Source: an uncultured Subdoligranulum sp.
Lineage (GTDB): Bacteria; Bacillota; Clostridia; Oscillospirales; Ruminococcaceae
Direction of reading: 5' to 3'
NCBI GenBank assembly: GCA_945830575.1
Contig: CALZZE010000021.1
Coordinates: 1 to 45,792, forward strand
Length of the DNA: 45,792 nucleotides
The notes below the pieces were generated by a model that worked only from the letters and a program-made list of their open reading frames with translations, had not been told where the DNA came from and made no database searches. Numbering within the stretch: position 1 is the stretch's first letter; each line of letters starts with the position of its first letter. Positions 21,490 to 24,895 of this stretch are shown in pieces. The position numbers and the translations under genes were made by a program.

Positions 21490-21511
21490 ATAGCTATAAG
21501 GAGTGGTACCT

Positions 21512-21850
21512 ATGAGCGATAACGCCAAGCAGATATTTGCGCAGAATTTGAGACGTTATATGAAAGAGAGAGGAATGACCCAGCAGGATATTGCTGAGTA
21601 TATGGGTTGTTCCGGTTCCACCGTCAGTGACTGGTGCAACGGAAACAAATATCCACGCGTAGATAAAATGCAGCGCCTCGCAGACCGTTTTGGCATCACA
21701 ATGTCCGAGCTGACCGCAGAGCAGGATCCATTGGATTCCGTTGATGTCGCATTCTATGGAGATTATAAACAGTTGGATGAGCATGACAAGGCGATTCTTC
21801 GAGATATGGTCAAGGCGATGCGTGCCAGGAGCAGAAAGGCGGAGGAATAA
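21512..21850 (+). CDS. CI-like repressor (XRE family)
   Basis: A 112-residue protein with an N-terminal helix-turn-helix (MTQQDIAEYMGCSGSTVSDW; then CNGNKYPRVDKMQRLADRFG). It is short and lacks the S24 self-cleavage domain, so induction likely works through the adjacent ImmA-type peptidase. ATG 21512 follows AAGGAG. It is expected to bind O1-O4 and keep the lytic genes off. Confidence 0.85.
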   Translation: MSDNAKQIFAQNLRRYMKERGMTQQDIAEYMGCSGSTVSDWCNGNKYPRVDKMQRLADRFGITMSELTAEQDPLDSVDVAFYGDYKQLDEHDKAILRDMVKAMRARSRKAEE

Positions 21851-21855
21851 CGAAT

Positions 21856-22302
21856 TTGTTTGAATTGCACGACCTTTATGATGACTGTGACAATTCCGAT
21901 GCCTTTATCATGATTTGGCCCGGAATGCCTGCCCCTGCCGCCACGATTCGTGACGGAGAATGTACCTGCATTGCATTTGACTGCACCAAGCTGAAAACCA
22001 CCAGAGAATTGCGCGGCGCAGCCATGCATGAGGACGGACATCTGCAAACGGGATGTCTGCACAAAGTTGACAGTCCCTATCAGATCGTAGCGCAGGCAGA
22101 ACACAGGGCGGATGCATACAGTTTTCAGAGATTCCTGACCTCGAACGAAATTTCCGAGGCAATGCGAAACGGATACACACAAATCTGGCAGCTGGCAGAG
22201 TATTTCGACCTGCCAGAAAAGACCATACAGAAAGCTCTGCATTACTGGACAGAGTGCAAGGGCATTGACTTCAACAAGAATACGGAGGACAATCCAGCGT
22301 GA
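21856..22302 (+). CDS. ImmA/IrrE-type metallopeptidase
   Basis: A 148-residue protein. MHEDGH near residue 58 gives an HExxH zinc motif, and EHRADAY near residue 83 supplies the third ligand region, as in peptidase family M78. Such proteins cut the neighbouring phage repressor on a stress signal, as ImmA does in ICEBs1. It begins at TTG 21856 behind GGAGGA, 5 bases after the repressor stop, so the two are coupled. Confidence 0.85.
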   Translation: MFELHDLYDDCDNSDAFIMIWPGMPAPAATIRDGECTCIAFDCTKLKTTRELRGAAMHEDGHLQTGCLHKVDSPYQIVAQAEHRADAYSFQRFLTSNEISEAMRNGYTQIWQLAEYFDLPEKTIQKALHYWTECKGIDFNKNTEDNPA

Positions 22303-22402: not shown

Positions 22403-22654
22403 ATGGCTTTATTTTCCAAATCAGAGAAAACGATGTACAACCGCTCCGATATGGCTGAAAAGGATGGTCATACCCATTTGTCAATCTATACTGTTTCCGG
22501 CCTTCTGATGGGGACAAACCGTTTTGACGAAAAGGCGACCGCTCCGTTGGAAGACGTTCTTCAACGAATGCAAAAAGACGGGTATGAGATTCTTGATGTG
22601 AAAGTCACCGCAGAATCCAACCAGATGTGCATTGCATCCATTCTTTACAAATAA
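22403..22654 (+). CDS. Unknown 83-residue protein
   Basis: Starts MALFSKSEKTMYNRSDM. The alpha/beta sequence has no motif I recognise (TVSGLLMGTNRFDEKATAPL; EILDVKVTAESNQM). The ribosome site is weak. It follows ImmA in the lysogeny transcript and precedes the structured non-coding region. The 100 bases between it and ImmA hold no other gene. Confidence 0.55.
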   Translation: MALFSKSEKTMYNRSDMAEKDGHTHLSIYTVSGLLMGTNRFDEKATAPLEDVLQRMQKDGYEILDVKVTAESNQMCIASILYK

Positions 22655-22770
22655 TAAGCCACAACACGTACATTCAGATAGATACCACCAAGAAATAAAT
22701 GACATCGTAGCTGCACACAGGCTTATCTAACAAGTGATGGACGCCCCCTTCTTCCATAACGATGACATAT

Positions 22771-22915
22771 CCTAAGGTCGGAAATCACGACCTTAGAAAA
22801 CTCAACGACAAAACGCAGCCGAGTTTGTCACGATCTGCCCCGGCGTTTTGCCGAGTCAGGAACTTCAAAATTATGTACCACTACCCTGTTTTGGGGTAGC
22901 GCTTACGACCTGAAT
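22771..22915 (+). repeat. Multi-hairpin module, copy 1
   Basis: The order is: 9-bp stem with 7-nt loop GAAATCA; AACGACAAAA...GTTTGTCACG stem; CGGC-GTTTT-GCCG; GTCAGG; CCCTGTTTTGGGGTA; CTGAAT. The same order is in copy 2 with stem pairs changed in step. Confidence 0.7.
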
Positions 22916-23097
22916 CGCAATTCAAAGAACATGGCCGAGCGGCTGGGGTACCAAAACGGTAGTCGAGATGTAACCCGTCATGTGTACAATGATGACAAAG
23001 GGGTATGTGAAATACCGACCCCATCACTTCATCTGGGTGAACGGTTCGTTCTGTCAGGTCGTGATACACGCTGCAAAGCTGGGTCGGCGTTTCGCCG

Positions 23098-23272
23098 GCA
23101 AAGGTGGCAAATTACCACCTTTGAAAACACAACGACAAAATGGCACAGAGTTTGTCACGGGCTGTCACGTAGTTTTTACGGGTCAGGTGTCTCAAGATAG
23201 TGAGATAGTTTCCAAAACTCCCATTTGGGGAGCTTTGAAGCTCCCCCTGTTTCGGGGTATCGGTTTCTGAAT
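23098..23272 (+). repeat. Multi-hairpin module, copy 2
   Basis: CAAAGGTGG/CCACCTTTG with loop CAAATTA; GACAAA/TTTGTC; CGTA-GTTTT-TACG; GTCAGG; CCCTGTTTCGGGGTA; CTGAAT. Relative to copy 1, stem positions 2 and 8 of the first hairpin, and two pairs in the GTTTT hairpin, changed on both sides. An extra GGGGAGCT-TTGA-AGCTCCCC hairpin (23227-23246) is inserted. Confidence 0.7.
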
Positions 23273-23610
23273 GGTTTGAAAAGGAGTGAACGTTTTGTTC
23301 ACACCTCTACAGGCGGATGATACAGGGGTGAGTGAAATTCTCACCCCCCCTTCCCGGCGGATTCTTGTAAACTGTCATTTTGGCAGTTTTGCTTTTCGCA
23401 AATTGCGACCACCTATTCCAGGCGGACACTCAATAACGATTCGTTACCGGGAAGGGGGCACCGAAACGATGCCCCCCCAAAAACAAGGACTCATACCCGG
23501 CGGGTGGGGTCGCGAATCGTTACCCCATAAGGGAGTAACCGAATGTTACACCCTTTCCAGAAGGATAAAAAGTGGGTGGCGAATCACCACCCAGTCACAA
23601 AGCAAAAAAT

Positions 23611-23642
23611 CGCCCCCGGTGCGCCAACACCGAGAGCGTTTT
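23611..23642 (+). terminator. Possible terminator of the structured RNA
   Basis: CGGTG (23617-23621) pairs with CACCG (23628-23632), outer CGC with GCG, then TTTT. Moderate strength only. Confidence 0.45.
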
Positions 23643-23653
23643 GAATAGATCGG

Positions 23654-23741
23654 CTTGCCCGAAGGACAATTACACGACCCGTATCTGTAATTGTACCACC
23701 TCCGGGCAGGCTTTGCAAGCTATACCCAAAAAACGGAGGTG
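23654..23741 (+). promoter_or_regulatory. Structured leader of the integrase gene
   Basis: CTTGCCCG (23654-23661) pairs with CGGGCAGG (23703-23710). Inside, ACAATTACA (23666-23674) pairs exactly with TGTAATTGT (23686-23694). CACCTCCG (23697-23704) is also the exact complement of CGGAGGTG (23734-23741), the integrase ribosome site. The second pairing would hide the site. The layout suggests translational control of the integrase. I recall similar leaders before integrases of clostridial elements, without being able to check. Confidence 0.6.
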
Positions 23742-23749
23742 TATTTTTT

Positions 23750-24895
23750 ATGTCATCGAGAACAAACACAGCGGCCCTTATCAATGGAAGGTGGGTCGTG
23801 AAGGTTCAAAAGAACGGCGTGCGCAAAGCGTTTTACAGTTCCAAGCCCGGCAAGAAGGGACAGCAGGAGGCCAACGCCAAAGCGGATGCGTGGCTTGACG
23901 GCGAGATCGTGGACGCAAAATGCCGTGTCCGGGATATATGGAAAGACTATCTGGCGGATGTGGAGGCAAGAAGTAGCTTTTCCAATTACAGACAGATCTG
24001 CACCATCGGGGATTCTTACGTTCTGCCGCTTCTCGGAAACAAAAAAGTATGCGATCTGACAGAGGGAGACTTGCAAAGCCTTGTCAACAAAGCGTACAAG
24101 CACGGTTCCTTCAACAGCAAGCAAAAGCACAAGTCCTCCCTGAAACCGGGAGAGACGCTGAGCAGAAAAACGCTGAACAACATTGTGGCCACGCTCAAGA
24201 ACTTCATGAAATACTGTCGTGTTACCGCGAAAGCCACCACAATGATACCAGAGACCCTTCGTGTTCCAGCCGGTGCCCGTCTTGACGGAAAATCCATTTT
24301 ACAGCCGGACCATCTGAAAACGTTGTTTTCCAGCGATATGACCACATGGCGTGGAAAGCCTCAAAAGGATGATATGATCTATGCGTATCGTCTTGCCGTC
24401 CTTACCGGCCTGCGCCCCGGTGAGCTGCTCGGACTGCGTTGGGGCGATGTCACGCCAAATGAGACACACTTGCAGATTCGTCGCGCCATCAATGTGTTTG
24501 GCGAAGAAACGCAGGGAAAGAACCAAAATGCGGTTCGCTCCATCCCATTAAGTGAATACGCGCAGGAAATGATTCGTGCGCAGCGCTCCCTTGCGATCGA
24601 GGAATGCGGCAGCGTGACGGCACAGGAACCTGTTTTCAGGGAGATCACAGAGCCAACACTGCGGGACACATGGAAACGGTACTGCAGGGCTAACGCGATT
24701 CCGTCTGTCACCCTGTATGAACTGCGCCACACCTTCGTAAGCATTGCCAGCCTGCTGCCAGCCGGTGAAGTCAAGATGCTTGTTGGGCACAGCCGCAGCA
24801 TGGATACCTTCGGGACCTATGGTCACCATATCAAGACGTATGACCAAATGATTGCGGATGACCTTTCCGGATTGTTTGACAATCTTCTTGGGTAA
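23750..24895 (+). CDS. int: Tyrosine integrase
   Basis: A 381-residue site-specific recombinase. After an N-terminal arm-binding part and a SAM-like core-binding domain (SRKTLNNIVATLKNFMKYCR) comes the catalytic domain: Arg in LTGLRPGELLGLRWGDV, His-x-x-Arg region in LYELRHTFVSIA, His in VGHSRSMDTFGTYGH, and Tyr of that same stretch or the following KTYDQM as nucleophile. It inserts and, with a helper, excises the prophage at tRNA-Ala. The gene ends about 140 bases from the attR core. No excisionase gene was recognised. Confidence 0.92.
   Translation: MSSRTNTAALINGRWVVKVQKNGVRKAFYSSKPGKKGQQEANAKADAWLDGEIVDAKCRVRDIWKDYLADVEARSSFSNYRQICTIGDSYVLPLLGNKKVCDLTEGDLQSLVNKAYKHGSFNSKQKHKSSLKPGETLSRKTLNNIVATLKNFMKYCRVTAKATTMIPETLRVPAGARLDGKSILQPDHLKTLFSSDMTTWRGKPQKDDMIYAYRLAVLTGLRPGELLGLRWGDVTPNETHLQIRRAINVFGEETQGKNQNAVRSIPLSEYAQEMIRAQRSLAIEECGSVTAQEPVFREITEPTLRDTWKRYCRANAIPSVTLYELRHTFVSIASLLPAGEVKMLVGHSRSMDTFGTYGHHIKTYDQMIADDLSGLFDNLLG

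Follow-up and report, generated by a model that had tools for sequence, protein, structure and literature searches.

Some prophages support lysogeny with an RNA that blocks antirepressor mRNA. One account gives this role to c4 in P1 and P7, to Sar in P22 and to 24B_1, and c4 has been linked to heteroimmunity as well (PMC12197685). Trans-acting antirepressors are known, according to an excerpt of a further paper (PMC3121763). STnc6030, a long RNA of prophage BTP1, brings about superinfection exclusion, with escape mutations lying in the complementary region; as far as the excerpt of that paper goes, it is a single cis-encoded antisense transcript directed against the same phage or a near relative, with neither an array nor foreign fragments (PMC7067206). 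As the excerpted account describes them, c4 and Sar are one RNA against one antirepressor (ant) mRNA, whereas the arrays described here appear, judging by their sequence, to hold fragments of many diverse antirepressor alleles together with those of a second gene.

The window analysed here is a whole contig of 45,792 nucleotides (G000:C21) from a genome of 69 contigs. It begins within phage tail genes, so some phage sequence could be absent from the contig. To the left of the array are minus-strand phage lytic genes, including those for the terminase large subunit, a DUF927 protein and a DnaG-type zinc ribbon protein, and to the right are the integrase (Table 1) and then chromosomal-looking genes; the switch is flanked by two repressor-type genes. 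Where the integrase leader has matches in phages, these point to Faecalibacterium. The sequence CACCTCC, near 23698 in the leader, is able to base-pair with GGAGGTG, the integrase's ribosome-binding site, at 23735-23741. Its minus strand has a promoter-like site at 23718-23690 and a terminator-like hairpin at 23638-23611, and the two together point to a short antisense RNA some 75 nt long.

We find the region between the lysogeny genes and this leader to be an array of short pieces that are similar to phage genes for Bro-N antirepressors. One hairpin of the region recurs inside the coding sequence of a relative's phage Bro-N antirepressor gene. When 22651-23620 was compared by blastn with 236 Bro-N domain segments, a target set that includes genes fetched by palindrome patterns, 40 matches at E<=0.05 were obtained, and their midpoints cluster around one site, at positions 125 to 224 of segments roughly 345 nt long. 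Between 22656 and 23603 there are 13 non-overlapping best-match segments at E<=0.05, seven of them at E<=0.001 (blastn); the best matches of these seven came from protein searches in four cases (L129, L095, L161 and L135) and from the patterns in three (L335, L266 and L262). From fifty dinucleotide shuffles of the region came two matches in total, in two shuffles, and when the window was cut into 93 overlapping chunks, matches at E<=0.01 were confined to the three chunks that include part of the region. Independently of the 236-segment set, a comparison of 22700-23600 with 50,697 annotated phage records returned an antirepressor gene as the sole match, and the fragment at 22923..23022 is 90% identical over 41 nt to the antirepressor of Streptococcus phage Javan340. 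Most fragments centre on one coding site, DKGVxxxxTP, which is often a perfect palindrome in Bro-N genes. The units differ in flank length, and many keep little beyond the hairpin.

Table 1. Features of the lysogeny region and segments of the array, in window coordinates.
Feature	Position	Strand	Evidence
XRE/CI-type repressor gene, upstream of array	21503..21850	+	Pfam HTH_3, E = 4.7e-14
Putative metalloprotease (ImmA-like place)	21856..22302	+	phrog_87 metallo-protease, E = 4e-9
Small ORF, 83 aa	22403..22654	+	phrog_17572 (unknown), E = 1.4e-10
Hairpin array (Bro-N-like fragments, mostly around one palindromic site)	22656..23603	+	blastn
Hairpin 1 of module 1, 9-bp stem; KVGNHDL in Bro-N phase	22772..22796	+	weak Bro-N match 22774-22800, E = 0.026
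CGGC/GCCG hairpin segment, weak Bro-N match	22830..22860	+	81% over 31 nt, E = 0.026
Hairpin, 6 bp, without target match	22881..22899	.	
Longest Bro-N fragment, helix and hairpin region, in frame	22923..23022	+	73% over 73 nt, E = 6e-9; 82% over 44 nt, E = 1.5e-6
Short Bro-N-like segment	23033..23060	+	86% over 28 nt, E = 0.009
Hairpin 1 of module 2 (KVANYHL), 9-bp stem	23099..23126	+	89% over 28 nt to L161 Bro-N, E = 0.001
Weak antisense Bro-N-like segment	23209..23239	-	81% over 31 nt, E = 0.026
Hairpin, 8 bp; hairpin itself without target match	23227..23246	.	
Antisense Bro-N-like hairpin segment (GTGAAC/GTTCAC)	23282..23309	-	86% over 28 nt, E = 0.009
Bro-N fragment with GVSEILTP hairpin, 8-bp stem	23301..23347	+	79% over 47 nt to L335 Bro-N, E = 4e-6
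Short Bro-N-like segment	23428..23463	+	78% over 36 nt, E = 0.009
Hairpin, 7 bp; hairpin itself without match	23454..23476	.	
GGGGTCGCGAATCGTTACCCC hairpin, ambiguous orientation	23496..23528	.	85% over 33 nt; antisense E = 3.4e-4, sense 1e-3
Bro-N hairpin segment (GVTECYTL)	23527..23555	+	90% over 29 nt, E = 3.4e-4
Bro-N hairpin segment (GWRITTQ)	23568..23593	+	96% over 25 nt, E = 3.4e-4
Conserved integrase leader, adjoining the array but separate	23604..23749	+	found upstream of integrases in many relatives
Tyrosine-recombinase integrase	23750..24895	+	Pfam Phage_integrase, E = 5.1e-12

The original prediction made this region a candidate large structured RNA, and the observations on which it was built hold up. 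The two modules it described are a direct repeat of 98 nt (22774-22871 and 23101-23198) with 74% identity; over the slightly longer 22771-22871 and 23098-23198, 74 of 101 positions agree. The paired changes reported between the modules are also there, the 13 named stem pairs (9 + 4) comprising nine that are unchanged, four changed on both sides and none changed on one side. As to the many strong hairpins, a count of perfect stems with loops of 3-9 nt, set against 100 dinucleotide shuffles, gives nine stems of at least 6 in 22656-23603 against a shuffle mean of 1.42 (maximum 5) and four of at least 8 against 0.14, and hairpin density exceeds that of all 100 shuffles for stems of at least 6, 7 and 8. 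The predicted RNA fold of 22760-23600 has z = -7.5, calculated from 20 shuffles only.

The identity suggested for this RNA did not survive comparison with known families. Rfam includes models of ROOL, GOLLD, HEARO, OLE and the C4 antisense RNA. None of the first four was reported by cmscan, either in the window at gathering score or in 22600-23800 up to E = 10, and C4 was likewise absent from the matches (window at gathering score; 22600-23800 with relaxed filters). No Rfam model at all matched the region at gathering score; with relaxed filters the best E in 22600-23800 was 0.28, far under the gathering score of the family concerned. Distant kinship found no backing either, as blastn recovered no relative of the modules in 199 related genomes or in phage and plasmid collections, and their exact core pattern had no relative in viral or genome contigs; the blastn matches of the region among relatives are mainly to the integrase leader. 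A composite of Bro-N-like fragments explains the region better than a known large RNA does. One large RNA of a new class would account for the fold score and for the compensatory changes between the two modules, but no relative of the whole region was found and the order and identity of the elements differ from array to array, and we regard this as a highly improbable reading. The further statement that the region carries no credible gene is right in that an intact gene is absent: a Bro-N gene with an intact open domain does not occur in the region, and Pfam reports nothing in its two longest plus-strand frames. Gene-derived sequence is nevertheless present, as the piece at 22925-23020 is an in-frame Bro-N fragment (E = 3.2e-4 with a custom profile; E = 2.0e-4 to phrog_7940).

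In Bro-N genes, the palindromic site encodes the stretch from a helix ending in DEDK to the strand INESGLYSL. A best perfect stem of at least 8 occurs in 22 of 120 distinct Bro-N segments, against 2.4 expected on synonymous codon resampling, in a sample drawn from palindrome-bearing queries and regular expressions, so that 22/120 is not a population frequency. Stems of at least 7 are found in 32 of the 120; 18 of them are centred 12-14 codons before INESGLY and four at 18 codons. Among 35 aligned Bro-N 27-mers, from which nine that fit neither register were dropped, the share of cells that pair is 85.5% in one register (n = 11) and 84.2% in the other (n = 15). Cells changed on both sides number 11 and 8, compared with 2.6 and 3.0 in shuffled columns; none of 2000 shuffles reached these counts, and the extra pair types were reached in 0 and 21 of 2000, although these fractions are not probabilities, the 27-mers being related sequences. 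Many of the changes alter amino acids. Bro-N genes with and without a perfect palindrome are of equal length at the site, which indicates that the palindrome is not an insertion. Protein-coding signal had been named in advance as a finding that would count against a structured nucleic acid. Such signal is present to the extent that the source genes are coding and one fragment keeps its frame; the palindromes in these genes nevertheless covary beyond codon choice, and selection on nucleic-acid structure is therefore still a live reading.

The second source, phrog_1733, behaves similarly where it was caught by the motif: all eight such genes, a count that leaves most of the 25 phrog_1733 places outside, have, at one or other of two sites, a stem of at least 8. 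Between one pair of alleles there is a compensated replacement of A-T by C-G, with two amino acids changed as a result. The phrog_1733 gene of FP_Lugh is gp10 (tblastn), in the early operon, adjoining the repressor side. A search of viral contigs with the phrog_1733 protein gave no relatives.

The palindrome motif is not exclusive to Bro-N, since 32 of 60 pattern matches lie outside Bro-N domains (nine in one terminase-like gene group, named by eye) and, among the matches listed from the genome-contig scan (82 in 80 loci), 14 are in a Bro-N domain by the custom profile, one is near one and 67 are not. The same palindrome consensus was seen in a terminase-like gene, again named by eye (VAIRYP/VTIRDP), in L253, L258, L259, L272-L274, L278, L285 and L307; it can thus occur in further phage genes. 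At L255 2776-2796, and also in L267, L288 and L308, a palindrome of this type precedes the start of a Bro-N gene by about 20 nt rather than lying within the gene. An ORF6N-like gene (named by eye) at L262 4560-4600, adjoining the array there, has its own in-frame 12-bp palindrome, GTGCCGACGAAATTCGTCGGCAC. At least 16 contigs of the Acidobacteria MAG NC_groundwater_8 have a dispersed multi-hairpin repeat including GGGGTGGCGAAACGCCACCCC (L420, L426, L427, L429, L430, L439, L444, L448, L451, L464, L469, L470, L474, L477, L482 and L492); this is probably an unrelated repeat family.

These occurrences bear on the possibility that the array is functionless debris, in which illegitimate recombination at palindromes piles phage pieces beside the integrase, and template switching rather than selection keeps the palindromes perfect. 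Quasi-palindrome correction yields compensatory changes without selection and could have done so here, and the palindromes found in unrelated genes and as dispersed repeats, as well as the existence of bidirectional terminator-like copies, would suit such an origin. It is harder to reconcile with the sampling of the same two genes repeatedly, and not others, six times in the same place, and with element 23301-23347, whose hairpin core matches the targets better than its flanks do. We consider debris unlikely, while giving it appreciable weight.

Besides that of the window, we found five further arrays, one in the same genome (C1) and the others at L014 (G023), L021 (G015), L344 (G249) and L345 (G059). 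In all six loci of the family that we looked at, the order along one strand is repressor-type gene, array, integrase; the repressor was identified by Pfam in the window, L336, L021 and L380 and by eye in L532 and L533. L014, L021, L344 and L345 have a zeta-toxin-like kinase gene between array and integrase, assigned by Pfam in L021 (Zeta_toxin, E = 5e-8) and by sequence likeness in the other three. Of the 16 annotated phage records matched by the C1 array, some of which are duplicates of one phage, 15 are antirepressor, Ant or BRO and one is unannotated. Several arrays also contain hairpins of the early gene phrog_1733. Two adjacent C1 elements come from the same phrog_1733 site, that is, two alleles side by side, and these elements match the phrog_1733 gene carried by prophage C3, also in this genome, at 93% over 58 nt and 81% over 57 nt; two adjacent alleles in one array are what would be expected from repeated sampling of one target. 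A seventh array, L425 from a Clostridiales MAG, is in a mobilizable element, between a NikA/MobC gene and the integrase, which fits a carried defence; one L425 unit shows 26 nt of full identity to a Bro-N gene from a different genome. Against annotated phages, the L264 and L021 arrays had no match and L425 matched only four near-identical Bacillus phage records, at E = 0.7 and without a feature. The clusters in L252, L262 and L264 have no link to an integrase. A second non-coding hairpin cluster, with GTTGCCGAACAGTTCGGCAAC and GTTGTCCACTATGTGGACAAC, lies at L380 11150-11500 (G249:C38), on the contig of array L344.

All seven integrase-linked arrays are upstream of the integrase, as would suit a structure acting in cis or as a decoy, with the hairpins serving as operators, RNA-stabilising hairpins or terminators of the phage's own repressor-integrase operon. 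The palindromes do look operator-like, and there is a terminator-like match at 23369-23389 on the plus strand and several on the minus strand. Such a role nonetheless seems very unlikely to us, because the hairpins share no sequence and the specific similarity to Bro-N and phrog_1733 alleles plays no part in it. Operator, REP-type and terminator readings as such were rejected on the same grounds, the hairpins having no common sequence and resembling those alleles instead.

Our preferred reading, to which we assign a probability of roughly 40%, is that this hairpin array of the lysogeny module, derived from the Bro-N genes of many phages, silences the antirepressors of rivals. The array would consist of short copies of one palindromic site with its flanks, taken from or shaped after diverse Bro-N genes, and would grow by the addition of new alleles. 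Its composition and placement are computed; its transcription, which would occur together with the repressor operon, and its silencing effect are inferred. The hairpin RNAs may bind self-complementary stretches of the early mRNAs (antirepressor and phrog_1733) of invading or co-resident phages, either orientation of a palindromic copy being able to pair with its target, and the pairing would block those mRNAs and leave the rival unable to lift repression. Known prophage RNAs that silence antirepressor mRNA in trans, or that exclude related phages, make a multi-target version plausible.

In support of silencing, the genome has target genes in prophages other than this one: at E<=0.001, Bro-N is found on C2 and C57 and phrog_1733 on C3. 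At that threshold contig C21 has no Bro-N or phrog_1733 gene besides the array fragment and, with none found in the window prophage, the targets of the array look foreign. Against silencing, the prophage stretches of C2 and C3 contain nothing that matches the window array at E<=0.05. In L264, a hairpin of the array has the same arms as the Bro-N gene beside it on its own contig, which counts against a strict non-self rule. As for other antirepressor families, pRha and ORF6N had no match in this genome and ORF6N occurs in 0 of 35 genomes of the genus; pRha occurs in three of the 35 genomes, but the motif search did not recover those genes, so Rha is not supported as a target.

Predicted pairing of antisense copies with their matched targets lies between -12 and -22 kcal/mol in five of six cases; the sixth, which sets a C1 element against the Bro-N gene on C2 (also in this genome), gives -1.8 kcal/mol. 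Sense pairing predicted for two window elements is -6.6 and -4.0 kcal/mol, no better than with mismatched Bro-N. Relative to the integrase, 10 of the 13 window segments are sense and three antisense (one ambiguous), and this preponderance of sense copies in the presumed operon direction weakens a simple antisense mechanism. This leaves three options: the array is read from the other strand, pairing proceeds through the palindromes when their local concentration is high, or the RNA model is mistaken. Among the neighbours scanned with Pfam, PHROGs and PADLOC, none was seen to be an acquisition or processing protein.

Mixed orientation of the segments would be at home in a store of cassettes for gene conversion, in which the array elements are silent donors, the palindromes are prone to breakage, and phage recombinases copy the loops and so diversify a surface loop of the Bro-N or phrog_1733 protein. 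The elements have flanking homology of 28-90 nt, and the site is a variable loop between conserved flanks, both in keeping with such a store. Yet the window prophage has no detected recipient gene, many elements hold little besides the hairpin, and neither the place on the repressor side nor the array in a mobilizable element is accounted for, so that we think a cassette store rather improbable.

Silencing of rivals, in turn, leaves the upkeep of palindromes in the target genes unexplained. A broader conjecture, which we find possible if somewhat doubtful, is a repeat-free, prophage-borne nucleic-acid immune memory: self-complementary tags from early genes (antirepressor and phrog_1733) would silence rivals in either orientation, and an arms race would keep the tags changing yet palindromic. 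Even if there is no silencing, covarying palindromes in antirepressor coding sequence and their copies in lysogeny modules are an unexplained, testable pattern. Full-text searches, in a literature without preprints and most subscription papers, turned up no description of this pattern of arrays and palindromes.

The array is unlike ROOL/GOLLD, CRISPR and TIGR on the features that define them. REP and Rickettsia palindromic elements are short palindromes within and between genes, a likeness to what is seen here, but the hairpins of the array share no sequence beyond their likeness to particular gene alleles. TIGR arrays are also tandem palindromic stem-loops in phage genomes, whose units have two 8-12 nt spacers and box C/D motifs within the stem-loop and go with a Tas protein that has a Nop domain (PMC12045711). 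We rejected a TIGR array, as the loops here are of 3-9 nt (4-9 nt for the stems of at least 6 bp) rather than two spacers of 8-12 nt; no Nop domain was seen among the window proteins scanned with Pfam. A CRISPR array was rejected as well, the only direct-repeat family having two copies and regular repeats being lacking; no Cas protein was found among the neighbours scanned with Pfam, PHROGs and PADLOC. What the locus has in common with CRISPR is a row of seemingly foreign phage gene fragments, sometimes with several alleles per target, whereas its units are palindromic, with flanks of variable length and no repeats between them. If the array does silence rivals, resistance of co-resident prophages to mutual induction would be explained, and temperate phages would carry a sequence-specific memory of their competitors' antirepressors without CRISPR repeats.
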